NCBI RefSeq assembly: GCF_000469325.1
Contig: NZ_KI271589.1
Span: 86,294-139,405, forward strand
Origin: Schleiferilactobacillus shenzhenensis LY-73
GTDB lineage: Bacteria > Bacillota > Bacilli > Lactobacillales > Lactobacillaceae
DNA: 53,112 nt
Reading direction: 5' to 3'
Part shown: positions 24,781 through 45,405 of the stretch, one piece after another
Position numbering within the stretch: the stretch's first letter is position 1
Layout of the letters: each line of letters starts with the position of its first letter
Program-made: the position numbers and the translations under genes
Notes under the pieces: model-generated
Database searches by the model: none
Seen by the model: only the letters and a program-made list of their open reading frames with translations
Told to the model about the DNA's origin: nothing

Positions 24781-26415
24781 CTACTTCATATTCAGTTTCT
24801 TCATGTTGGCTTTGATATTCTTGTCCCGCGTTTGATTGATTTGGTCAATGCTGTTGGACTTCTCGAAATCCTTGTATTTCTTTACATTGGCATCAAACTC
24901 TGCCTTGGACTTTGCTCGAATGAGACTGACTAGTGTCGTGCTCCAATTGGTTTGAATGGCGGAGTACGCACGTGCTTCCTGGGTTCCCGGATCGGGTGCG
25001 ATATTCTCTGTCTTGAATTGCGGTGTCAGGTACTTCTGACCCCACTTCTGCATTTGCCAAATGGCCTTAACATAGGAATCTTTGTTCAAGGCCTTGTAAC
25101 GATCATGGCCAAACAGAATAAATTCGCCCATCCGGTACTGGTTCTGCCACTTATCTGGATCGTCCTGTTGTACCTTAGCGGCACTTGGTGTCCACTTGAC
25201 CATACCATTACCAGCATCTTCATAAGTCTTCCCTTTGATGCCGTAGTTGACCAGCATCTGCCCACGATCGCTCAAGAGATACTCGAAGACCTGAATTGCC
25301 TTTGCCGGGTTCTTGGTCTTGTTAGAAATGTAGTTAATCATCCAACCAGAGATCCCTGCTTGAGACAACGTAGGTTTCCGGCCTTCAGTGCTCTGGATAC
25401 CATCGACGGCCACATATTGGTCATCCGGATGCTTTGAAGCAAATGTTTGTAGGTTGATGCCGTGGTTAACATCGCTGCCCATCATGATCGTTGCGTATTT
25501 ACCGACGTTGACTTTTTCGTTGAAGGCATTGGAATCGTCGGTAAAGCTATCATCACTGATATTACCAGCGGCATGGACTTCACGGAAAGCATTCAACCAT
25601 TTCAGATAATCCGGGTCCATGTTCCGTGCATAGTATTTGTTGTCTTTGGTAACAATGGGCACACCCAGCATATCTTGAACAACGTTGTCCAGCGAACTAT
25701 TGGCGCCAGAGAAGTCGTTGAAACCGAAGGGCGTGAGATTCGGGAATTTGGCTTTGATAGCTGCCATGGCTTTTACAAAGCCTTCTGGTGTTGTAAAGTC
25801 TTGCTTGCCGATGGCTGCTAAGACATCCTTCCGAACAATAAAGGCGTCGCGAGGCGGAACCTTCCCTGACTTGTAGTCGGCCTCAGTATTCGAGTAGTCC
25901 GGATAACCGTATGTTTTGCCATCTTTCATCTTGTACCAATTTAAGGTGTCTTGACGGGCGACCTTGAAGAAATAGGGATCGTACTTCGTCGCTAAATCTT
26001 GTAACGGGTACGCCCATTGGCTGGCGGTCCGTGCAACTTTAGAGTTCGGGTCAAGAATTGTTACAACATCCGGCAACTTACCAGAAGCAAAGTACGTGTT
26101 CAGCTTAGTATCGTCCCCAGTGACAAACTTGATATTAACGTTCAAGTCTTTCTTGATTTGCTTGGTGATCATGTCCTTGCCAAAGGACTTATTCCACCAG
26201 TCGGCATTGACATACCACGTTAACGTGTTGTTCTTGCTTTTATCCGCTTTCCAAGCCGGCGTGTTCTTTGAAACTTTATAGGACACTTTGGGCAATTTGT
26301 CGCTGGTGCTGGATGAATTGGAACTGGATGAGCCGCACCCCGCGGCGATCAACATTGTTGCAGCTGCCATGGCCGCAATCGCGCCAATGCGCGCCAACCG
26401 TTTGGTAATACTCAC
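24781..26415 (-). CDS. Sugar ABC transporter substrate-binding lipoprotein (LplA-like)
   Basis: A 544-aa extracytoplasmic solute-binding protein. The signal peptide ends in the lipobox LIAAGC with Cys27, followed by a Ser-rich linker, so it is lipid-anchored outside the membrane. The mature protein has the LplA/YtcQ-type organisation used for complex oligosaccharides: TLTWYVNADWW, KLPDVVTILDPN, TYGYPDYSN. GTG 26415 is preferred over ATG 26424 because AAGGGAG is nine bases away from the GTG and abuts the ATG. It works with the two permeases upstream. Substrate unknown. Confidence 0.88.
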   Translation of the reverse strand: MSITKRLARIGAIAAMAAATMLIAAGCGSSSSNSSSTSDKLPKVSYKVSKNTPAWKADKSKNNTLTWYVNADWWNKSFGKDMITKQIKKDLNVNIKFVTGDDTKLNTYFASGKLPDVVTILDPNSKVARTASQWAYPLQDLATKYDPYFFKVARQDTLNWYKMKDGKTYGYPDYSNTEADYKSGKVPPRDAFIVRKDVLAAIGKQDFTTPEGFVKAMAAIKAKFPNLTPFGFNDFSGANSSLDNVVQDMLGVPIVTKDNKYYARNMDPDYLKWLNAFREVHAAGNISDDSFTDDSNAFNEKVNVGKYATIMMGSDVNHGINLQTFASKHPDDQYVAVDGIQSTEGRKPTLSQAGISGWMINYISNKTKNPAKAIQVFEYLLSDRGQMLVNYGIKGKTYEDAGNGMVKWTPSAAKVQQDDPDKWQNQYRMGEFILFGHDRYKALNKDSYVKAIWQMQKWGQKYLTPQFKTENIAPDPGTQEARAYSAIQTNWSTTLVSLIRAKSKAEFDANVKKYKDFEKSNSIDQINQTRDKNIKANMKKLNMK

Positions 26416-26456
26416 AATAAACATCTCCCTTAAACTTTTCCTTCAAAATAGACTGA

Positions 26457-29686: not shown

Positions 29687-30454
29687 TTACAGAGCCGTCC
29701 ACCCGCCATCAGCCACCAGCACCGATCCATTCACGAACTTGGCCTCATCCGACACCAAGTACAATGCCGCGTCGGCCATGTCCTCGCCAGAGCCCTGCGG
29801 TGACTCAAAGCCGCCGGACGCTTGCAGTGCTTTTTGGCCCACTGGATCAGGATCCGTGATGGTCGCCCCAATATTGGTGACGACAGAACCAGGGGCTAAG
29901 ACATTGGCCCGGACCTTGCCCTTAACACCGTAAGTGGCCGCAATGTTTCGGGTCAGGCCAATAACAGCGTGCTTCGAAGTGACATACGCCGCCCCGCCGC
30001 GGCCGCCGAAGAAGCCGCCGACGGAACTGATATTCAGGATCACCCCGCCGTTTTCTTGGGCTTCCATGATCGGCACGGCTTCCCGGCAGGACCAAAACGG
30101 TGCATAGAGGTTGATTTTGAGTACTTTGTCCCAGGATTCATCCGTTGCTGACACGACCGTCTTGAAGTTGTCTACGATACCGGCATTATTGACAAGGATG
30201 TCCAAGTGGCCGAATTCTGTCTCAGCTCGGTGCACCAGGGCCTTCACGGCAGCTTCGTCGCTGACGTCGGTAACATCGCCGACCGCTTTGCCGCCGGCAG
30301 CGGTGATGGCATCGACCGTGGCTTGAACACCGGCTTCGTCCCGGTCACTGACCAGGACCTGGGCCCCTTCCTGAGCAAAGCGCAAGGCCATGGCCTTCCC
30401 CATCCCATTGCCGGACCCCGTAATGATTGCTGTTTTACCTGCTAAACGCGCCAT
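29687..30454 (-). CDS. Short-chain dehydrogenase/reductase
   Basis: A 255-aa classical SDR oxidoreductase using NAD(P)H. The cofactor motif is TGSGNGMG, NNAG follows in strand 4, the catalytic serine lies in NISSVGG and the Tyr/Lys pair in YVTSK. The C-terminal GSVLVADGGWTAL is typical of the family. ATG 30454 has GGAGA upstream. Substrate (alcohol, ketone or acyl chain) cannot be told. A terminator separates it from the lacI-type promoter region. Confidence 0.9.
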   Translation of the reverse strand: MARLAGKTAIITGSGNGMGKAMALRFAQEGAQVLVSDRDEAGVQATVDAITAAGGKAVGDVTDVSDEAAVKALVHRAETEFGHLDILVNNAGIVDNFKTVVSATDESWDKVLKINLYAPFWSCREAVPIMEAQENGGVILNISSVGGFFGGRGGAAYVTSKHAVIGLTRNIAATYGVKGKVRANVLAPGSVVTNIGATITDPDPVGQKALQASGGFESPQGSGEDMADAALYLVSDEAKFVNGSVLVADGGWTAL

Positions 30455-30541
30455 ATTGAATCGTCTCCTTTTCAAGTGATTAGAATCACAATCTACAATT
30501 CTATTATACCGAGTTGGAGACAGGCTTGGCTAGCAGAATGC

Positions 30542-31951
30542 TTAAGCGGTTTCAGAGCGGCGGCGATACAGCAGCAGACCGCCAATCAGCAGCACGGCGG
30601 TGCCAATCAACGCCACCGCCCACCAGTAGCTGAAGTGCATGGCGTTCACGAACCAGTCTGGGTGTGCATGGGGATAGGCTATCACCCGGGTGCCTGCTTG
30701 CCGGGACATGCCCCAATACAGCAGCGAAGTCGCCAGCGACAGTCCCAAGGCCATCCCGATATTTCTCCCTAAGGCGGCCATTGCCCCGGCGATGCCCTGG
30801 TACTCCGGACCAGCCCCGCCCATGATCATCGGGTTGTTCTGGAAGGCGCCGTTGGCCACCCCGAACATGGCCAGACCGACGATCAGCCACCCCAGCGGTG
30901 TTGTCGGGCTGGCCCAGAGGAACAGTCCGAGGGGAATGAAGAAAATAAACAAGGCGTAGAACGATACCTTCTCCGCCCCGATGTGGTCGCTGATGATCCC
31001 ACCGGTGGGGGCGCTGACCATATTCAACAGCGGCACCGCCATCAAGATCACGCCAGCGGTGGCCGACGAGAGCGCCAGTGTTTCTTGCAGGTAAAAGGGC
31101 ATGATCACATTGTTAAAGTAGCCGACCATATAAACCAGCATCGCCGAGATAATGCCCAGCGTGAATCCTGGCGAGCGGAAGATGCCCAGAGCAATGAGCG
31201 GGCTGGCCACCCGTCGTTCAATCACAATAAACGCGACGAGCAGAGCGGCGGCCAGGGCAAAGAGCACCAGCACGCCCGGATGCGTGAAGCCGGCCGCCTG
31301 CCCCCAGTAGATGGCAATGAAGAAACTGACGATGGTCAGGGCAAAAGTACCATATCCCGGCCAGTCCACCTGGATGGCGGACCAATTGACCGGATCGTGG
31401 GGATAGATCCGGTAACCGACGAAGAACGCGATGATGCCGATGGGCACGTTAATGAAGAAAATCCAGTGCCAGCTGGCGACCGCGAGAATTAAACCGCCGA
31501 TGCCCGGCCCGGCAATATTGCCAATTTGGACAAACGTGCTGTTCAACCCCAGCGCCCGGCCGTGTTCGTTCATCGGAAAGGCTTCCGTGATGATGCCAAA
31601 GTTGGCGGACATCACCATGGCGGCGCCTAATGCTTGGAACAGGCGGGCGCCGAGCAGCAGCGGCAAGCTCCCGCTCAAGCCGCAGGCCAATGACCCGGCA
31701 ACAAAGACCAGCGTACCTGTTTGAAATACCGGGATGCGGCCAATCTGATCGGCGAGCCGGCCAAAGAAAATCAGCAGCGCGCAAATCGCCACCAGGTACA
31801 CCGACACCACCCATTCAGCTTGGTTCATTGGTACCCCCAATTCCCGCGAGATATGGGGAATGGCAATATTGACCACGCTGGCGTCCAGCGTCGACATGAA
31901 CGACACCATTGAGGTCGCAAATAACATGATCCAGCGGGACCGCTGTTCCAC
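30542..31951 (-). CDS. DHA2-family MFS drug exporter (EmrB/QacA-like)
   Basis: A 469-aa multidrug-type major facilitator with about 14 hydrophobic segments. STLDASVVNIAIPHISRELG is the signature of helix 1 in the DHA2 family, and FGRLADQIGRIPVFQTG is motif A. GTG 31951 was chosen because AAAGGA lies nine bases upstream; the GTG at 31960 is directly adjacent to it. The start codon lies inside a perfect parS sequence, and the 5' leader is strongly structured. Likely proton-driven efflux of toxic organic compounds. Confidence 0.88.
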   Translation of the reverse strand: MEQRSRWIMLFATSMVSFMSTLDASVVNIAIPHISRELGVPMNQAEWVVSVYLVAICALLIFFGRLADQIGRIPVFQTGTLVFVAGSLACGLSGSLPLLLGARLFQALGAAMVMSANFGIITEAFPMNEHGRALGLNSTFVQIGNIAGPGIGGLILAVASWHWIFFINVPIGIIAFFVGYRIYPHDPVNWSAIQVDWPGYGTFALTIVSFFIAIYWGQAAGFTHPGVLVLFALAAALLVAFIVIERRVASPLIALGIFRSPGFTLGIISAMLVYMVGYFNNVIMPFYLQETLALSSATAGVILMAVPLLNMVSAPTGGIISDHIGAEKVSFYALFIFFIPLGLFLWASPTTPLGWLIVGLAMFGVANGAFQNNPMIMGGAGPEYQGIAGAMAALGRNIGMALGLSLATSLLYWGMSRQAGTRVIAYPHAHPDWFVNAMHFSYWWAVALIGTAVLLIGGLLLYRRRSETA

Positions 31952-31959
31952 GTGAAACA
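31944..31959. promoter_or_regulatory. parS chromosome-partition site (ParB/Spo0J binding)
   Basis: TGTTCCACGTGAAACA is a perfect match to the conserved 16-bp parS consensus of Gram-positive chromosomes. ParB loads here as a CTP-dependent clamp and recruits SMC. The site overlaps the start codon and first codons of the MFS exporter gene. parS sites cluster near the replication origin, so the window is probably origin-proximal. Confidence 0.85.
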
Positions 31960-31965
31960 CTCCTT

Positions 31966-32200
31966 TACTTGACTTTGATTAGAAAATGGCTGAGCGCCGC
32001 AAGAAATCTTGTTGGGAACGGATTGGTGGCCGGGGCAATCTGCCCGTTGCCCCTCCCTGCCACCGAGCGGGCTGAACAAAGTCTAAGGACCGTACCGTCA
32101 AAACCAAACTGCGGGTTATTCGGCTGTCCGGGCACTTAGCCCGGATAGCCCATCTGCTCAGCGTCGTCTTCTCCTCGCTATCATTTTTCACTCATCTAGG
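31966..32200 (-). other. Structured 5' leader of the MFS exporter
   Basis: A stretch of about 235 bases without a supported gene. Two strong hairpins are present: GGCTGTCCGGGC (32122-32133) with GCCCGGATAGCC (32139-32150), and GGGGCAA (32032-32038) with TTGCCCC (32047-32053). An open frame on the minus strand (about 70 codons from 32191) has no protein-like features. A cis-acting RNA or attenuator controlling the exporter is possible; no known riboswitch class was recognised. Confidence 0.35.
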
Positions 32201-32253
32201 CTATGATAGCCCTACACCATATTTCTACATTGTACAACGAAAGGAGTTTCATC

Positions 32254-34164
32254 ATGGCAGAAGAACAAGTACCCCGTGTGCAAGACGATCTCTACGGGCA
32301 TGTCAACGGCGCCTGGCAGCGAACCGCCACCATTGATCCGGACCGGGTCTCCGCCGGAGTCAGTACCGACTTGGACAAACTGGTCGAAAAGGAATTACTC
32401 GCCGATTTAAAGGATGCGTTGGCGAAGGCCCCGGACAAACCCAAGGATAACTTCCAAAAGGCCGCTGTTCTCTTTGGCAAGGCCCTGGATTTCGACCAGC
32501 GTGACCGGGAAGGCATGGGACCGATTCAGCCCCGGCTTTCTAAAATCCAGAGCATCAAGACCCTGGCCGACTTCAATCAGAACCTGCCGTACCTGATCCA
32601 GAAGGGGTATAACCTGCCCTTCGTCCCTTACGTCGGTACCAACATGCACGATGCCACCCGCTACCAGGTCATGTTCAGCTCGCCGGAGACGATCCTCCCG
32701 GATGTAACGATGTACGCCGACCCCACCCAGAAGCAGCAGCTGCTGCCGGTGTGGGAGAAGATGGCCCGTCTGCTTCTGGCCCAGTCGCCGCTGAGTCCCG
32801 CCGACCAGGAGACTTACGTTCAAGACGCCCTCACCTTCGACAGCCGCATCGCCGCCCACCACATGAACCACGAAGAGGCGGCCGTGGACGACAACTTCGA
32901 TAATCCGGTGGCGTGGGACATTGCCTTGACGAAGTTTGCCGGCGTGGCCATTGGCGCCGGCATCCAGCCGCTCCTGCCGAGTATGCCGAAGACCGTCAAC
33001 ATTCTGGACCTGAAGTACTTCAATCACTTTTCTGACACCTTCAACGCCGACACCTTCTGGGAATGGCAGCACTGGGCTTACGTCAATGAGCTGACCGACC
33101 ACGCCCAGTACCTGAGCCGTGACCTGCGCAAGATCGGCACGATGTACCAGCAGGCACTGACCGGACAGCAGGAATTGACCCCGCCGGAGCGCTTCGCATA
33201 CAACGTGGCCAACCATTACTTCGATGAACCCATCGGCGTGTTCTACGGGAAGAAATACTTCGGTCCCCAAGCCAAGGCGGATGTCACTCACATGGTCGAA
33301 GACCTGATCGCCACCTACAAGCAGCAGATCCACGCTAACACGTGGCTGTCCGATTCCACCAAGGCGATGGCCGTGAAGAAATTGGACACCATGGTCATCA
33401 AGATGGGCTATCCTGAGAAGGCGCGGCCGCTGTATGACCGGATCAGTATCGACAAGGAGACGCCGCTAGCCACGACGCTGGATACCATTGCGGAGGTCAG
33501 CCAGCAGTACCGCTTCGCTCGGCTGAACAATCCGGTGGACCGCAGCGAATGGAATATGCCCGCTCAGCTAGTCAACGCCTCATATGATCCGTCCGCTAAC
33601 GATATCACCTTCCCGGCGGCTATCCTGCAGGCACCCTTCTACGATGTCAACGCCAGCCGGGCGGCCAACCTGGGCGGGGCCGGCGCCACCATTGGCCACG
33701 AGATCAGCCACGCCTTCGACAACAACGGGGCGATGTATGACGAACACGGGAACAAGAAGAACTGGTGGCAACCCGCCGACTTTGCTGCCTTCAAGAAGTA
33801 CACGGCGGCCATGATTGCCCAGTTTGACGGTATTCCTTACGCCGGCGGTAAGATCAACGGCAAACTGGTCGTCAGCGAGAACATCGCCGACAACGCCGGC
33901 TTGAACGCCGCCCTCCAGATTCTCCACGCCGAGGACGCGCCCCAGAGCGACTTCCAAGAATACTTCATTAACTACGCCCGGACTTGGCGCACCAAGATTC
34001 GTCCGGAATTCGAGCGGGTCATCTTGAAGACCGATGTCCACGCCCCGGCACTGCTCCGGACTAATGTGCCGGTGCCGAACTTCCCGGAATGGTATGCCGC
34101 GTTCGGTGTGAAGCCGAGCGACCGGATGTTCCGGCCGGCGGATAAACGCGTTGTGATTTGGTAA
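32254..34164 (+). CDS. pepO: Oligoendopeptidase O, M13 zinc metallopeptidase
   Basis: A 636-aa M13 (neprilysin-type) endopeptidase. The zinc site is IGHEISHAFDNNG with His482, Glu483 and His486, and the third ligand glutamate lies in SENIADNAGLNAA. There is no signal peptide, as expected for the intracellular PepO of lactic acid bacteria, which cuts oligopeptides imported during growth on protein. ATG 32254 is placed by AAAGGAG eight bases upstream. Monocistronic, ending in a strong hairpin. Confidence 0.92.
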   Translation: MAEEQVPRVQDDLYGHVNGAWQRTATIDPDRVSAGVSTDLDKLVEKELLADLKDALAKAPDKPKDNFQKAAVLFGKALDFDQRDREGMGPIQPRLSKIQSIKTLADFNQNLPYLIQKGYNLPFVPYVGTNMHDATRYQVMFSSPETILPDVTMYADPTQKQQLLPVWEKMARLLLAQSPLSPADQETYVQDALTFDSRIAAHHMNHEEAAVDDNFDNPVAWDIALTKFAGVAIGAGIQPLLPSMPKTVNILDLKYFNHFSDTFNADTFWEWQHWAYVNELTDHAQYLSRDLRKIGTMYQQALTGQQELTPPERFAYNVANHYFDEPIGVFYGKKYFGPQAKADVTHMVEDLIATYKQQIHANTWLSDSTKAMAVKKLDTMVIKMGYPEKARPLYDRISIDKETPLATTLDTIAEVSQQYRFARLNNPVDRSEWNMPAQLVNASYDPSANDITFPAAILQAPFYDVNASRAANLGGAGATIGHEISHAFDNNGAMYDEHGNKKNWWQPADFAAFKKYTAAMIAQFDGIPYAGGKINGKLVVSENIADNAGLNAALQILHAEDAPQSDFQEYFINYARTWRTKIRPEFERVILKTDVHAPALLRTNVPVPNFPEWYAAFGVKPSDRMFRPADKRVVIW

Positions 34165-34187: not shown

Positions 34188-34239
34188 ACAGGCCCTGCCC
34201 CCATCAGCGGTATTATTGCTGGCTGGGGACAGGGCCTGT
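34188..34239 (+). terminator. Terminator of pepO
   Basis: ACAGGCCCTG (34188-34197) pairs with CAGGGCCTGT (34230-34239), with further pairing of CCCC with GGGG inside, then TTTATT. Confidence 0.75.
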
Positions 34240-34250
34240 TTATTACATCC

Positions 34251-34280
34251 GACATTTTTGGTCTATCTTAGACATTTTTC
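34251..34280. promoter_or_regulatory. Direct repeats upstream of the first surface protein
   Basis: GACATTTTT occurs at 34251-34259 and 34271-34279, 20 bp apart (about two helical turns), 34 bp before the -10 box. This spacing suits a response regulator of the direct-repeat type, but no regulator is encoded nearby. Confidence 0.35.
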
Positions 34281-34309
34281 CAAATATGCAAACTATTCTG
34301 TCCCACCGA

Positions 34310-34318
34310 TGATACAAT
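34310..34318 (+). promoter_or_regulatory. Extended -10 promoter of the first surface protein
   Basis: TGATACAAT at 34310-34318, about 48 bp before the ATG. The same nine bases occur at 41681-41689 before the second surface protein. Confidence 0.5.
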
Positions 34319-34365
34319 GGAATGGCATAAGTGTATGGCAACATCATGGGAGTGGGGGATATCAA

Positions 34366-37300
34366 ATGTCGAAGCCATCGTTGACGCGGACGCGGGAGTT
34401 CGCGGTCAGGGTCAGTGTTTTGTTCGGTCTGATGCTATTATTGGGAATTGGTTTGACTAAATTGCCCGTCACAGTAGAAGCAGACACTGATGCTGACGCA
34501 AGTGCTTCAGCAATTTCTGAGAGCAGCAGCGCGGCCGCCCTTTCTGGAAGCAGAACGAACGCAGCAGCCGCTTCTGAGAGTAATCCCAGTGTGGTCCCCG
34601 CCTCGGCAAATACGCAAACCGACACCACGTCCCCGATTGCCAAGGCAATGCTGGGGGCAACACTGCCGGCCATCACGGAGAAGGCCAGCCAAACACAGGC
34701 GGCCGCGGCGGATGCGGACGATACTGCCGCAAGTACCACCCCGCTCTGGGTGGCGCAAGCGGTTGTGGGGACGCCGTATACACCCTTGGAATTCATGAAT
34801 TTGCCGATGGACAAGCAGTTAGCGTTGATCAAAGCAGCCAATCCGGATATTCCGGCGGCGAACGTCACGCAAACCGAATCGATGGGTAAGTATACGCCGC
34901 CCACAGCGGCCGCGGCACCTGCGCCGCAGACCAATCAATCGTCTACGGCCCAGATCTTGCGCAGCCAGCAACGGCTGTTAGCTGATGGGACAGCAGTGTT
35001 TGATATCGGCATCCAACCCACATCTGCTGGCGTCGCTGTTCAGCAAATTGATTTGTATACATATCCGACGGGTTGGTCAAGTGCCCTGAGCAGTTTAGTT
35101 CCTGGAGATTTTACGGTCACTTTGCCGGCCGGCCTCAGCGCAGACGATTTCAAGTTAGCGGTGCTTCAACAGGGCAGTTCGACGTACCTCCAAGCGACCC
35201 TGTCGGCTACGGCTATGAAGATGGCCCAATCGGCAAGCGGGTGTCCAGTGAAGCTGGTCACCACTGGCCCCGCCGGCAACAATCAATTACCGGCAGTTAC
35301 GTTCAATCTGGATTTATGGCAGCCGTCCATTCAACGCGCTTATGGCAAACTTGACCTGGGTCAGAATCTACAGATGCAATACATGTTCAATTCGTATTTC
35401 CCGTGGGACGGCAAGGAAACAGCCAACACGCTGATTAATCCAGACGCCGCCGACCCAAACCAGAACAGACGAGAGAATTTTGGGACATCAAACCAGCAGA
35501 GCATTGATATCCCGAACATGAACGTGGTGAACCTGGGAAAAAACGTCCGCATGATGGGCCAATTCCGGGATCGCGGAGTCGCGTCTAATTCCACCTTCTT
35601 CATCGACGGCGGTTGGGATGAATATCAGAGCCAGGGCGGCGGCGATAATGCCAGCCCGGGATCTTTCGGCTCGTGGCACTCTTCTCCCCTGTTGATCGGC
35701 ATGGACGGCGGTGCAGCCCAAACGTTAACGGGCAGCCTGTTTGACGGCAGTTACAGCCCCAATTATGCGTTTGACGACACCCGCCACATTCAGATGTACC
35801 CTGATCCCAACGAACCAATCGATGACATCAAAACGGTTCATTTGGATTATATGGGGTATATTACCGATGCAGCTAAAATCCAGGCGTTGAGCCCGTCTGT
35901 AGCCGCGTCCGTTTCTGAGCTCATCTTTAAGGTCCAGTGCACACTGCAGCCGAGTCCAGAAAGCAACCAGATGCAAATGTCTGAAACGGTCACCAATATG
36001 ACCCCTGGTGTGGATTTGACGGGGATGTACTTTGTCCGTAATGTCGACACTTCCCTCGCGCAAAAGACAAATGATACCACACCGCTGCTTTACTCCACGG
36101 CAGGCACCAGCAATTACAACGATAACATTCCTATTCGCTATGCCCCCATTGCCCAAGAAGGTCCTTTGAAGGGCTATACCGAAGGGCTGTACATTCGACC
36201 AGAGGGAGACAACCCCGACGTTCCCTATGCCATCGAGTATAATTTTAATAACGATTATGGCCCGGACGGTTGGTTCGGCGGGCACGATGTCCCTTGGGGA
36301 AGAGCTGTAGGAGCCCAAGACCCTACGTCAGCTCAACTCACAGGAACCAGCGTGGCCTATAATGGGGCCAAAACACGGTATAAGTCCTTCGCCAATACAA
36401 AGGCCAATGGTGATGCGAAGAATCCTGCGAATACCCCCGGATCATCCGCTTCTGGCGTCAACGGCGATACCGGGATTGCCATGAAGTGGTCAAGCAATTA
36501 CGTTGGCAATTTCGGCTACGGCAAGTCCGTCAGGATGGTGTATAACGGCAAGGTGACAGACTCTGCCGCACCGTACATCACGGTGGATAAACACACCATG
36601 ACAGTAAATCCAACGGATACGGGTGATGTGCCGGTGACCGGCCAAGCGATGGACACGGACAGTGATGCCATGCAAATCTTTTACACGGTCGATGACCCTG
36701 TTGATGTTTCCCAAGATATCGCCACCTTGAGAGGACAGGGCACGCAGTTTGCCTCAGTCTCGTATACCCAGGCAGGTAAGCCGAAGGGCGATTGGCTGCC
36801 CTTCACCGGCACAATTTCGAAAACCGAGGCCAAGGCCAACTGGGATAAGCTGCACACCGACGGCGAACATACAATTCGCGTGTACGCCTTTGACGTGCCG
36901 ACGGGGAACCAAACGGCCCACGTTTCTAACTTGGAAACGATTCGCGTCAATCCCCGGGCTAAGGCCGTACTGCATTTCGTCGACGAAAACGAAGATGCTA
37001 TTCACGATCCCGTGACCAAGAATGGCATCAGCGGAAAAGCCTATGATTTCTGGGACTTCGATGCAAAGAGCGTGTTGGCAACGGCAGCCACCGATCTCAC
37101 TGGCCAGCCACCCGCCAACCTCGGTGACGGCCCGTACTACACATTGAATACGACGGTCAAACCCGCTAACGCCACTGGTGTATTGCCGGATGACAACGGC
37201 ACGGTGAACATCTACTTCACATACAAAAAGACTGACTTGCAACTGACGGTACCTAAATTGGACTTTGGCAATCAACCGCTCCCGGGCGCAACGGCCAAGA

Positions 37301-37665
37301 GTTATTCAAATACCCTGGCCAATACATTCACGGTGAGCGATACCCGGTCCGCCAAATCCGCCGCGCTGACGCTCAATGCGGCGTTGACTGGATTCGCCAA
37401 TGGGACTGGACAGGACGCTGCTCTCCTGAATGGCGCCAGCATTAAGTTCATCCGTAACAAGTCAGGTGTGGATGTGCCTTGCGGGACGAGTGCAACGGCC
37501 AGCGGTACGAATACGGACATTGCCTCCGGATTAGCCGGGACGACCAATCCGTACGATGTGAATTTCGATGACATTCAATTAATTCTGCCGAGTGCCACTG
37601 CCAGCACGGCCAAGTTGGGGTCATACAATGCAACACTCACGTACACATTGAGCGACGGGCTGTAA
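34366..37665 (+). CDS. Large secreted surface protein with MucBP-like and degenerate WxL-like domains
   Basis: A 1099-aa exported protein. A signal peptide (charged start, hydrophobic core LFGLMLLLGIGL, cleavage near VEA) leads into a Ser/Ala/Thr-rich region to about residue 130. The large middle is unassigned and rich in Asn, Asp and Gly. A cadherin/Ig-like segment lies near 735-865, a MucBP-like stretch (KAVLHFVDENEDAIHDP) near 865-955, and from about 960 a WxL-like domain begins with KLDFGNQPLPG. Both hallmark tryptophans are replaced: AALTLNAAL instead of WxL, and YNATLTYTLSDGL at the end. No LPXTG anchor. WxL domains bind peptidoglycan non-covalently; the changes leave anchoring uncertain. 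Confidence 0.75.
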   Translation: MSKPSLTRTREFAVRVSVLFGLMLLLGIGLTKLPVTVEADTDADASASAISESSSAAALSGSRTNAAAASESNPSVVPASANTQTDTTSPIAKAMLGATLPAITEKASQTQAAAADADDTAASTTPLWVAQAVVGTPYTPLEFMNLPMDKQLALIKAANPDIPAANVTQTESMGKYTPPTAAAAPAPQTNQSSTAQILRSQQRLLADGTAVFDIGIQPTSAGVAVQQIDLYTYPTGWSSALSSLVPGDFTVTLPAGLSADDFKLAVLQQGSSTYLQATLSATAMKMAQSASGCPVKLVTTGPAGNNQLPAVTFNLDLWQPSIQRAYGKLDLGQNLQMQYMFNSYFPWDGKETANTLINPDAADPNQNRRENFGTSNQQSIDIPNMNVVNLGKNVRMMGQFRDRGVASNSTFFIDGGWDEYQSQGGGDNASPGSFGSWHSSPLLIGMDGGAAQTLTGSLFDGSYSPNYAFDDTRHIQMYPDPNEPIDDIKTVHLDYMGYITDAAKIQALSPSVAASVSELIFKVQCTLQPSPESNQMQMSETVTNMTPGVDLTGMYFVRNVDTSLAQKTNDTTPLLYSTAGTSNYNDNIPIRYAPIAQEGPLKGYTEGLYIRPEGDNPDVPYAIEYNFNNDYGPDGWFGGHDVPWGRAVGAQDPTSAQLTGTSVAYNGAKTRYKSFANTKANGDAKNPANTPGSSASGVNGDTGIAMKWSSNYVGNFGYGKSVRMVYNGKVTDSAAPYITVDKHTMTVNPTDTGDVPVTGQAMDTDSDAMQIFYTVDDPVDVSQDIATLRGQGTQFASVSYTQAGKPKGDWLPFTGTISKTEAKANWDKLHTDGEHTIRVYAFDVPTGNQTAHVSNLETIRVNPRAKAVLHFVDENEDAIHDPVTKNGISGKAYDFWDFDAKSVLATAATDLTGQPPANLGDGPYYTLNTTVKPANATGVLPDDNGTVNIYFTYKKTDLQLTVPKLDFGNQPLPGATAKSYSNTLANTFTVSDTRSAKSAALTLNAALTGFANGTGQDAALLNGASIKFIRNKSGVDVPCGTSATASGTNTDIASGLAGTTNPYDVNFDDIQLILPSATASTAKLGSYNATLTYTLSDGL

Positions 37666-41772: not shown

Positions 41773-44700
41773 ATGTTAATTCAACACCGAATTTTCAGAA
41801 AACTATGTCAGTGGGTCATTCTGGGCCCAATATTTTGGGGACTGCTCATCTTGACCTTCGCTGGCCGCGCCCACGGGGCGACCATCGGGAGTGTACTGGA
41901 CAATACAGGGGCCACCGCCCCCGGCGATATGTATCAGATCCCCGGCTTAGACCGAGCCCGCCAGCGGGGTGAAGGGTCGTATGTCAAGACCGGTGTCGGC
42001 ACGGGAAGCCCGCTTACCACCGGCAACGCGGCCGATTGGGAAGGTAAGAAAGCCGCCTCGCCGACGATTATCACCTTCCCGGACAAATTGAACACCAACG
42101 ATACCGGGGATCCCAATCCCTGGTTCAGCGTCAACTACGTGGATCACAACGGCTTCATCGACTTCAAAGACTTGACTCAAGCCAATAATTTCTACCAGCA
42201 CGGCGAATCCAATTACAACGCCAGCAACATCAAGAGCCTGATGACCACCGGCTACCCCGGCAGCCAAACGACCCGGGGCCCCGTCTTAAAGGACGGGGCC
42301 TCGTTTGACGGCGGCTTTTTGCAAGTCACCGGGAACGTACCCATCAAAGCTCAGATTGCCGGCTCCCAGACCAGTGTCGACGCCACGATGGCCGGCAACT
42401 GGGGCGTCATGGTGCGGGTCACCCTGCCGGAGGGCATCGACGCCAAGTCCCTGGGCGGGGCCATCGACTGGGGCCAGTCCTATTTCTATCTCACCCTGCA
42501 GTCCATCAGCTTCTGGGGCATCCAGATTGGGCAGCTGAACTTCCCGTTGCAGTTCGACCATCATGTCTACCTGGATCCAGATGTGAAGAAAACCAACGTG
42601 TTCTACCTCAAAGTGAAGGGGATCCCGTTTGGTTACGATGTGTCGGCGAACAAGACGACGGCAAAGATGCAGCTCCAGCGGGGCACGGCCGACTACTTGG
42701 ATTACCTGCACAACCGTTATATCGAGGGCGGTCAGGCCAAGACGCTGGACAACCTCACCGCTTCCGGCGACACCGATACCACGGGCAGCGGCACGAATAT
42801 TCAGCCGCAGTTCATTGCTCAAAGCGGCGGTAAAGATACCGTCTGGGATCCTTTTTACGGACTGGTCAACCAATATCTGGAGGGGATTCCCCTCTTAGGC
42901 CCGTTCATGGCCTGGATCACCAGCTGGTTTTCTTCCAGCCCGGTCTACTTGACCGGTAACGTGGGGCGCACCGTAGCCTTGCTCAATGCGGCCTACCACT
43001 CGGCAGACCGCGGGCTCACCTCGAATTCCGGTTGGCTCTGGCGAGCATGGCAAAATACGGTGGTCTCGCCCATCATTGCCAACATCTCGCAATACTTCGT
43101 GACCAATGGGTTCACTGGAACCGCCCATATCAATTTCTCTTTCGATATGAGCAAGTATGCCGGGGACGTGAACCAAGACTTCCAGGCCATCACCGCCGGC
43201 CGGCTGATGCCCGCCCCTTATCCCGACGGCCAGTTCAACAAGGGTACCGGGCTGGGCACCGCTGCTGAGGGCGACCCGAACCGCCAGGCGATCGGTATCA
43301 AGCTCTACGGCAGCAATACCCTCGTCGATCCCTACGACGTGCTGGCTGGCAAGGACCGTACCGCGCCCAACGCCGACTTGCTCGCCCAGATGAAGGCCGG
43401 TACATCGCCGATGGATTACGCCGTCATCGACCAGGCCAAGCTGGAGACCAGTAACCAGGACGACGCCCGGGATTTTCCGGTCTACAGCAACTTTTCTACC
43501 TGGACCGCCTTCGTCAGCCCCTTCGACAACAGTCCACAGAAAGATACCCTCAATTCCAGCGGCGATCCGCTGGGGAGCGATATGCGGGCCCGGACTGCGC
43601 GGCCGGATAGTTACAGTGACGGTATCCTGGTCAACGACGGCAGCGACTTCAGCGTGGATCAGGACTACGACCCGGCGGCGAGCGGACCGCTCACGAAATC
43701 CGCGACGGACGACACACTGACGGCGGCGGGGGCCATCGTTCCCCAGCGATACGCCCAAGTCTACCAGTATTACGATTACAGCGGGGCGACGCCGGTGGCC
43801 AAGCCCACGCGCATGTTCACCACGGCCAGCAACACGCTGTGGGTCAGAGCCAATCAAGACCGGAATGCCGCCGCGGGGTACACCGGGCAGGTCACCCAGG
43901 GCTTCCCCAATAACCAGTGGGTCTACACTGGTAAGTACAACAACTTGGCCATGGCCGGCGCGACGCTGGGTCTCGCTCAGGATCTGCGGCCGGAGCTGAA
44001 CGACAGTGGCAGCCGCACCTTCATTCAGCCTCGCACAGCGGCGATGAATGGCAATACGGTGCGGTCGACACTGGGCACTTGGCGGGATCGGCTGACGGTG
44101 AACCTGGATAGCTTGACGGTTCGGACCTATCGGCTGGGCAGCGATACCGTCCTGGGCATGACGATGACAGATCGGCTCTTCCCCAGCGGGACGGCCGAAA
44201 ATCTGGATCTTCACTGGGGCGACTCGCTGGGGTACGCCATCACCGGTCCGCTGCCCTATGGTCCAGTCACCGCCGCGCTGCAGCTGCCGCCGGCCGGCAG
44301 TGCCGCCACTGACAACGGCTTCTACGGCACGGTCCAAATCAAGCGGAATAAAGACGTGCCCATCAATTTGCAGACTGCTGCCAACGCAGCGAACCCGCTG
44401 AAACTGGCGGCCGCTGCCCCAGACTTGGTGCGCAACTCGGATTTTCTTATCCTCTTCCGGGACGATACGACCGCCGATTGGTCGGCCGCACACCGCTTCA
44501 CCACGACCGCCAGCGATACCGTGTTCTTCTTCCAAGACAGTGACCGCGCGCCGGTGAGCGGCACCGTCAAGAATAACGGGACTGCCAGCCAACAGACGTT
44601 CCAGATCATGCTGCCGCGGGTGCCGGGCACGACACTCTCATCCCTCACCGTCCAGACACCCACGGGGAGCGCTGTGCCCGCCGCCAATATCACGCCGCTC

Positions 44701-45405
44701 ACCACCAACACCGCGCTGGATAAGTATTACCAGCGCTACCAAGTGCAGATGCCCAGTGCCATTACCCAGGGCCAGACATTCACGTTCGGCTATACTTACG
44801 CGCCCAACGATCTGACCCAGATGCCTAGCAGTACCACCTTGCGCACGGTGGTCAGCAACGCCGATGGTACGGTCCTGGCTGAAACAGGGGCGCTATACTT
44901 GAAGCGAATGAGCACCTTGGCCATCCTGCAAACGCCGACGCTGGATTTCGGCCGGCACGTCATGCCCAGGGAGACGACCACGTACGGCCTGACTGAAGCG
45001 AGCCAGCAAGCCGCCCAACTGGTCATCCAAGACAACGCCCAGGCTACCGGTCAGACGGCGCTGAGCTGGACCGTCGATGGATTCCTCTCGCCCTTCACCG
45101 CCGCCAGCGGCGAAGAGCGGAACGACTTCACGTTGGCGCTGGGCCAAGGGGTCATGCCGGCGGATTACGAATATCCCACCGATGCGGATTGGCGGGCCGC
45201 GGTGACGGCCAACCACACGGCGGCGCCCTTGCCGGCCAACCAGCAGACCGCCCGCTTGTTCACCATGAACACGCTGTTGGAGCCGAACACGAACGCCGCG
45301 CCGCTGATCATCGGCTACCCCAACGCCCGCCTGACCGTTCCAGCAGTGACCAAGAATGGTGAGTACTCGGCAACGCTGACTTACACGGTGAATATGGGCC
45401 TTTGA
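41773..45405 (+). CDS. Very large secreted surface protein with degenerate WxL-like C-terminus
   Basis: A 1210-aa exported protein. The signal peptide has the core WVILGPIFWGLLILTFAG and a cleavage site near AHGA. The body is unassigned and rich in Asp, Asn, Thr and Tyr; a hydrophobic patch YLEGIPLLGPFMAWITSWF near residue 375 is unusual for a secreted protein and may be buried or membrane-active. From about residue 1055 a WxL-like domain begins (TLDFGRHVMP), retains one Trp in LSWTVDGF and ends YSATLTYTVNMGL with Tyr where the second Trp is expected. No LPXTG. AGGGAGG is the ribosome binding site. Role in adhesion or wall interaction is inferred. Confidence 0.72.
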   Translation: MLIQHRIFRKLCQWVILGPIFWGLLILTFAGRAHGATIGSVLDNTGATAPGDMYQIPGLDRARQRGEGSYVKTGVGTGSPLTTGNAADWEGKKAASPTIITFPDKLNTNDTGDPNPWFSVNYVDHNGFIDFKDLTQANNFYQHGESNYNASNIKSLMTTGYPGSQTTRGPVLKDGASFDGGFLQVTGNVPIKAQIAGSQTSVDATMAGNWGVMVRVTLPEGIDAKSLGGAIDWGQSYFYLTLQSISFWGIQIGQLNFPLQFDHHVYLDPDVKKTNVFYLKVKGIPFGYDVSANKTTAKMQLQRGTADYLDYLHNRYIEGGQAKTLDNLTASGDTDTTGSGTNIQPQFIAQSGGKDTVWDPFYGLVNQYLEGIPLLGPFMAWITSWFSSSPVYLTGNVGRTVALLNAAYHSADRGLTSNSGWLWRAWQNTVVSPIIANISQYFVTNGFTGTAHINFSFDMSKYAGDVNQDFQAITAGRLMPAPYPDGQFNKGTGLGTAAEGDPNRQAIGIKLYGSNTLVDPYDVLAGKDRTAPNADLLAQMKAGTSPMDYAVIDQAKLETSNQDDARDFPVYSNFSTWTAFVSPFDNSPQKDTLNSSGDPLGSDMRARTARPDSYSDGILVNDGSDFSVDQDYDPAASGPLTKSATDDTLTAAGAIVPQRYAQVYQYYDYSGATPVAKPTRMFTTASNTLWVRANQDRNAAAGYTGQVTQGFPNNQWVYTGKYNNLAMAGATLGLAQDLRPELNDSGSRTFIQPRTAAMNGNTVRSTLGTWRDRLTVNLDSLTVRTYRLGSDTVLGMTMTDRLFPSGTAENLDLHWGDSLGYAITGPLPYGPVTAALQLPPAGSAATDNGFYGTVQIKRNKDVPINLQTAANAANPLKLAAAAPDLVRNSDFLILFRDDTTADWSAAHRFTTTASDTVFFFQDSDRAPVSGTVKNNGTASQQTFQIMLPRVPGTTLSSLTVQTPTGSAVPAANITPLTTNTALDKYYQRYQVQMPSAITQGQTFTFGYTYAPNDLTQMPSSTTLRTVVSNADGTVLAETGALYLKRMSTLAILQTPTLDFGRHVMPRETTTYGLTEASQQAAQLVIQDNAQATGQTALSWTVDGFLSPFTAASGEERNDFTLALGQGVMPADYEYPTDADWRAAVTANHTAAPLPANQQTARLFTMNTLLEPNTNAAPLIIGYPNARLTVPAVTKNGEYSATLTYTVNMGL

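Follow-up and report, generated by a model that had tools for sequence, protein, structure and literature searches.

Gene content of the exporter locus

The window, that is, the whole stretch of DNA analysed here (53,112 nucleotides), corresponds to positions 86294-139405 of contig C8 in the draft genome of Schleiferilactobacillus shenzhenensis LY-73 (3,271,016 bases in 61 contigs). At its centre of interest is a gene for an MFS exporter of 469 aa (30542..31951, minus strand), which is followed on the same strand by a gene for an SDR-family oxidoreductase (29687..30475, minus strand; Pfam adh_short_C2), also its neighbour in the two congeners G001 and G002, and by one for a LacI-type regulator. 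Divergent from the exporter gene lies pepO, encoding an M13 endopeptidase (32254..34164, plus strand; Pfam M13). The exporter scores 185 bits against Pfam MFS_1 (cut-off 33.4), while its DHA2/EmrB-like character stays below the model cut-off (TIGR00711, 208.3 bits versus 230.2), and its closest named relative is a protein of Furfurilactobacillus milii (71%). The original prediction of a drug exporter thus stands as far as the MFS family is concerned, whereas drug export itself, given the score under the TIGR00711 cut-off, is likely but unproven.

Elsewhere in the window, two large frames, one of 1210 aa (41773-45405) and one of 547 aa (24781-26424), had no Pfam match at E 0.001. A third frame of 1149 aa (34216-37665), with one weak MucBP match just over the cut-off, perhaps encodes a surface protein.

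A perfect parS and its genomic copies

By motif search, the 16-bp palindrome TGTTCCACGTGAAACA at 31944-31959 (no strand assigned) matches the parS consensus TGTTYCACGTGRAACA with no mismatch and is thus a predicted loading site for ParB/Spo0J. Its own reverse strand apart, the window contains no other parS at up to three mismatches. Across the draft genome eight perfect matches to TGTTYCACGTGRAACA were found, against none for the reversed pattern that served as control for chance matches; from base composition, 0.002-0.003 perfect sites per genome would be expected by chance under an independent-base estimate. With up to one mismatch allowed, 18, 13 and 11 sites were found in three genomes of the genus, respectively, and the reversed control gave none in all three. 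The prediction of a perfect parS at this position was therefore confirmed, and the search for further copies that had been proposed with it was positive. According to a simple ORF caller, six of the eight perfect sites are intergenic and two are at the 5′ ends of genes; one of this pair precedes the Shine-Dalgarno sequence of the gene concerned, and the second is the site at 31944-31959.

The genome also carries the genes expected to act on such sites, on contig C14 in the order rsmG-noc-soj-spo0J. ParB and Noc both exceed their model cut-offs (TIGR00180, 184 versus 58.45, and NCBIfam, 331.2 versus 315, respectively), and in PDB the ParB sequence best matches 'Stage 0 sporulation protein J' (6sdk; E 1.2e-71). 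Soj reached no NCBIfam cut-off among the best 25 matches listed and was named by family resemblance and gene position, and the rsmG assignment is a reading of the sequence. A residue code that tells parS-type from Noc-type specificity is described in the available portion of PMC7383237; placed by eye in the present sequences, the corresponding residues are GKSR plus GQAR in ParB, with the expected parS-type R and G, and GKSQ plus RHGR in Noc. Contig C14 itself, which carries parB, harbours no parS at up to two mismatches. The consensus of the Noc-binding site (NBS) is a ATTTCCCGGGAAAT-type sequence, and none of this type is present in the window at up to one mismatch. Taken together, the genomic copies, the par genes, the ParB residues and the conservation in one of two congeners (below) make the assignment of 31944-31959 as a parS well supported.

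Bases shared between parS and the likely exporter start

On the minus strand the start region of the exporter gene reads AAAGGAG-TGTTTCAC-GTG GAA CAG CGG. The Shine-Dalgarno sequence AAAGGAG (31960..31966, minus strand), of which AAGGAG is kept in both congeners, directly abuts the parS. One parS half-site, TGTTTCAC (31952..31959, minus strand), is exactly the 8-nt spacer between the Shine-Dalgarno sequence and the start, and the likely GTG start codon (31949..31951, minus strand) is at the centre of the dyad, so that the second half of parS covers the first two codons, start codon included, and runs into the third. The start of the program-made open reading frame, at 31960, is implausible because it falls directly on AAAGGAG. 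The exporter is thus likely to start at the GTG of 31951-31949, 8 nt downstream of AAAGGAG, as is also suggested by comparison of 5′ ends with those of 15 relatives from other species: in six of these (L021-L025 and L029, from Furfurilactobacillus, Lentilactobacillus, Lacticaseibacillus and Loigolactobacillus) a start codon is aligned exactly at this GTG (ATG, ATG, TTG, GTG, GTG and GTG, respectively), and both congeners also start there, while the nine others, which are more distant, have longer N-termini. The claim that the parS overlaps the GTG start of the exporter and adjoins its ribosome-binding site was upheld, with the spacer as well as the start codon located inside the parS.

The mRNA leader has an ordinary fold (z -0.30, with equal or better folding in 70 of 200 shuffles), which gives no support to an RNA hairpin switch over the start codon. 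A promoter scan of 31800-32300 found no promoter.

Conservation of the site among congeners and relatives

The same 16 parS bases are found at the same place in congener G001 (85% protein identity of the exporter), whereas congener G002 (78%) harbours no parS at the exporter start. The present genome and G001 agree at 8/8 positions of the spacer half and at 7/8 of the Shine-Dalgarno segment, as compared with 21 matches in the next 74 leader bases and 52% at third codon positions. Given this leader background, the probability of the 8/8 spacer match is ~4e-5, a figure weakened by the ribosome-binding constraint, from which some of the leader conservation could come. G002 has the same AAGGAG and the same spacing but a different spacer (2/8 identical). 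No parS at up to two mismatches was found at the exporter start of the 15 relatives, which belong to other genera; the site at this start is thus kept in one of two congeners and in none of the 15.

In G001 (L168:788-803) as well as G002 (L169:5238-5253), pepO contains close to its 3′ end a one-mismatch parS, which reads in frame as FHVKQ or FHVEQ and is absent from the window. G001 has both sites, and in G002 the near-parS in pepO is ~2 kb from the position of the exporter start. All three species therefore harbour a parS or near-parS in this neighbourhood, at the exporter start, in pepO or in both, a pattern suggestive of site turnover inside a ParB-loading region that has itself been retained.

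Distance from the origin

The dnaA gene is located on contig C3 (154242-155564), together with three perfect parS at 103, 118 and 130 kb from it. As the site at 31944-31959 and dnaA are on different contigs of a draft genome, only a minimum distance can be given, which is at least ~125 kb even if C8 and C3 abut. Contig order was compared between selected stretches of the present genome and parts of G002 (120.0 of 120.3 kb of C79, the whole of C24, 40 of 545 kb of C1, 20 of 86 kb of C7, 40 of 53 kb of C11, 20 of 52 kb of C12 and 20 of 41 kb of C15), with the dnaA contig of G002, C16, outside this comparison. Contig C79 of G002 (120 kb) carries, in order, homologues of the right end of C6, of C3 at 180-183 kb, of C24 and, at the end, of C8 at 42.6-43.9 kb. 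In its own genome the C3 segment is 25-27 kb from dnaA, and the synteny on C79 favours a placement of C8 in the same domain as this origin-near part of C3. Gene order is clearly rearranged between the congeners. Two further matches may be paralogous, one between G002 contig C11 and C8 at 119.8-120.2 kb (72% over 371 columns, in pepO) and one between C79 and C3 at 223-225 kb (66%).

Family-wide, 42 of 61 perfect parS (in 17 genomes; 19 genomes were searched for dnaA) are on the dnaA contig, at a median of 17 kb and a maximum of 135 kb from dnaA and with 38 of the 42 within 60 kb; the remaining 19 are on contigs devoid of dnaA, where the distance is unmeasurable, and these figures are therefore biased down. 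In the seven genomes that comprise no more than four contigs (G035, G040, G010, G005, G033, G043 and G037), all 14 parS are within 136 kb. The parS at 31944-31959 is thus likely to be in the origin domain, as judged from contig synteny and family distances. The earlier statement that it is near oriC was supported only in part, in this broader sense: the contig is without dnaA, and checking the distance returned the ~125 kb minimum for this site next to the 103-130 kb of those on C3.

Placement of parS in Lactobacillaceae

A total of 86 perfect parS were found in 43 genomes of 40 genera, with at least one in 28 of the 43. Placement relative to genes was determined for 79 perfect parS in 75 stretches (L001-L008 and L225-L291; 8 own, 27 survey loci and 40 further). 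With a simple ORF caller, 52 of the 79 were intergenic, 16 were inside frames, 8 were at 5′ ends and 3 at 3′ ends, as compared with 49, 377, 17 and 23, respectively, of 466 control positions 500-900 nt off. The intergenic excess has a Fisher p of ~6e-25 (2e-22 without the eight sites of the present genome, its control positions being retained), with the qualification that the sites are not fully independent, that genes are from simple ORF calls and that some of the 5′-end calls are mechanical. The sampled perfect parS in Lactobacillaceae are mostly intergenic and avoid coding interiors, a bias which suggests that transcription units shape the placement of bacterial centromere sites.

Flanking pairing runs of at least 6 were found at 4 of the 79 sites (mean 0.57 and maximum 5 in 500 shuffles), and those of at least 5 at 6 sites (mean 1.9 and maximum 6), which is no more than suggestive of parS lying within longer palindromes or hairpins of terminator-like form.

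Several individual sites of the sample have features of their own. In the present genome, the parS at L004:1501-1516 (G000:C4:114188) and L006:1501-1516 (G000:C6:143353) centre terminator-like inverted repeats with flanking pairing of 10 and 6, respectively; the same values were found for the family sites L286 and L277. The parS at L005:1501-1516 (G000:C6:46081) is just upstream of the Shine-Dalgarno sequence of a gene for an ABC substrate-binding protein, which adjoins another gene of similar appearance. Paired perfect parS, with starts 28, 28 and 37 bp apart, are found ~4 kb from dnaA at L232, L234 and L235, respectively, in genomes of 1.3-1.4 Mb.

Recurrence of the layout in other genomes

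A perfect parS preceded by a Shine-Dalgarno core (AGGAGN{0,4}parS) was found in 13 of 397 Lactobacillaceae genomes, versus 18 of 397 for the reverse-complement control CTCCTN{0,4}parS, which is not neutral, as it also catches parS located just upstream of a ribosome-binding site. At 13 versus 18, the recurrence therefore does not demonstrate selection for the layout, and Shine-Dalgarno enrichment beside parS was rejected as evidence of a selected dual use. In 8 of the 13 genomes a long frame starts from the central GTG of the parS (it is absent in the other five), with 0 to 3 bases between AGGAG and parS. Four gene families are represented: the MFS gene in two congeneric genomes; a GyrI-like protein in four genomes, all from one genus (PF06445 over the cut-off in three of four, the fourth at 23 versus 26 bits); a solute-binding protein in one genome of that same genus (PF00496); and an Na+/H+ antiporter-family protein in a single genome, from a third genus (PF03553).

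At the level of the phylum, AGGAGN{0,3}parS was found in 11 of 398 genomes, one of which is the present genome. The other ten matches (L294-L303, from Bacillota outside the family) are all within ParB-family frames (TIGR00180 over the cut-off in 10/10), typically in a VSRGTISMGHAR-like stretch of the gene; none of them is therefore a gene start, and among these 398 genomes the parS-start layout was not found beyond the family. The broader idea that parS acts as a composite of ParB site and full translation initiation region, recurring on unrelated Lactobacillaceae genes whose expression would be tuned by ParB loading, is given little credence.

Interpretation of the parS at the exporter start

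The site is probably a genuine chromosomal parS for ParB loading on a broad origin domain, which has been accommodated in the start of the exporter gene. In the proposed scheme, the ParB (Spo0J) of the cell would load at 31944-31959 onto this broad domain, from a parS situated in the divergent pepO-exporter region and fitted into the translation start of the exporter. The half-site TGTTTCAC would serve as the Shine-Dalgarno spacer, and the GTG of the dyad, with GAA CA(G/A) after it, as the start codon; exporter initiation could share the bases of parS because the latter contains a GTG of its own and its half-sites have the length of a suitable spacer. Several observations weigh against this scheme. 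G002 shows that the site is dispensable at the exporter start, ribosome-binding constraint could account for part of the leader conservation, contig C8 carries no dnaA, gene order is not the same in the congeners, and the ~125 kb minimum exceeds most of the parS distances measured in the family. From the ordinary leader fold and the mixed precedents for local effects of ParB, accommodation of the parS without strong regulation of the exporter appears most likely, and any effect on exporter expression would be small.

A dual-use element, which is unlikely though worth consideration, would have ParB at the parS lower exporter transcription by roadblock or promoter silencing, so that output follows ParB level or the cell cycle, with exporter expression in turn disturbing ParB loading. 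The composite of Shine-Dalgarno sequence, parS and start is exactly kept in two of three congeneric genomes, consistent with such a role, and local effects have precedents: P. aeruginosa ParB represses promoters at the intergenic parS3/parS4 (PMC5521831, available portion), and mutation of a single parS induces comCDE 5 kb off in S. pneumoniae (PMC7022226, available portion). Yet the accessible text of the same two papers also reports that native-level P. aeruginosa ParB was without effect beside the intragenic parS1/parS2 (PMC5521831) and that in B. subtilis there was no effect on genes near parS, those beside it being unaltered upon loss of Spo0J (PMC7022226). Moreover, Shine-Dalgarno adjacency does not exceed its reverse-complement control, the leader fold is ordinary and G002 has no parS at the exporter start, all of which argue against dual use.

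It is very improbable that the parS is a leftover from a time when the locus was nearer to the origin, now disappearing after rearrangement. Contig order does differ between the congeners, G002 is without the site, and the parS on the dnaA contig are themselves already 103-130 kb out; however, two species with ~48% divergence at exporter third codon positions both retain the 16-mer without a mismatch. Least credible is a mere by-product of ribosome-binding site and codon choice with no ParB site at all, since eight perfect sites face a chance expectation of ~0.003 per genome and the spacer is kept at 8/8 in G001 yet at 2/8 in G002 after the same AAGGAG, even if a gene start is constrained anyway and one orthologue begins with a similar ATG AAG CAA.

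Comparison with known parS systems

Among the listed titles and opening lines of abstracts on parS at start codons or ribosome-binding sites, in Lactobacillus and Lactobacillales, or intragenic in Firmicutes, no description was found of a parS as a translation start, nor of an intergenic parS bias in Lactobacillaceae; such coverage is no proof of novelty.

The site at 31944-31959 resembles the parS of chromosomal ParABS (Spo0J-type) systems in its full match to the consensus, in its several genomic copies and in the presence of ParB, Soj and Noc genes, and differs from them in its position on a translation start and at least ~125 kb from dnaA. With the parS inside parB of other Bacillota, which account for all ten other AGGAG-adjacent matches among the 398 phylum genomes, it shares the overlap with a gene; those sites, however, are mid-frame and not at a start codon, and the parB of the present genome, on C14, is without a parS. 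A further parallel is parS3/parS4 of P. aeruginosa, which are likewise at the 5′ ends of genes, with potential for local regulation. There, repression was demonstrated by experiment (PMC5521831, available portion), whereas here the predicted parS is within the translation start itself. With a predicted ParB site and a translation start on the same bases, the exporter locus offers a clean case for cross-effects between ParB and a gene, in which few base changes would be needed.
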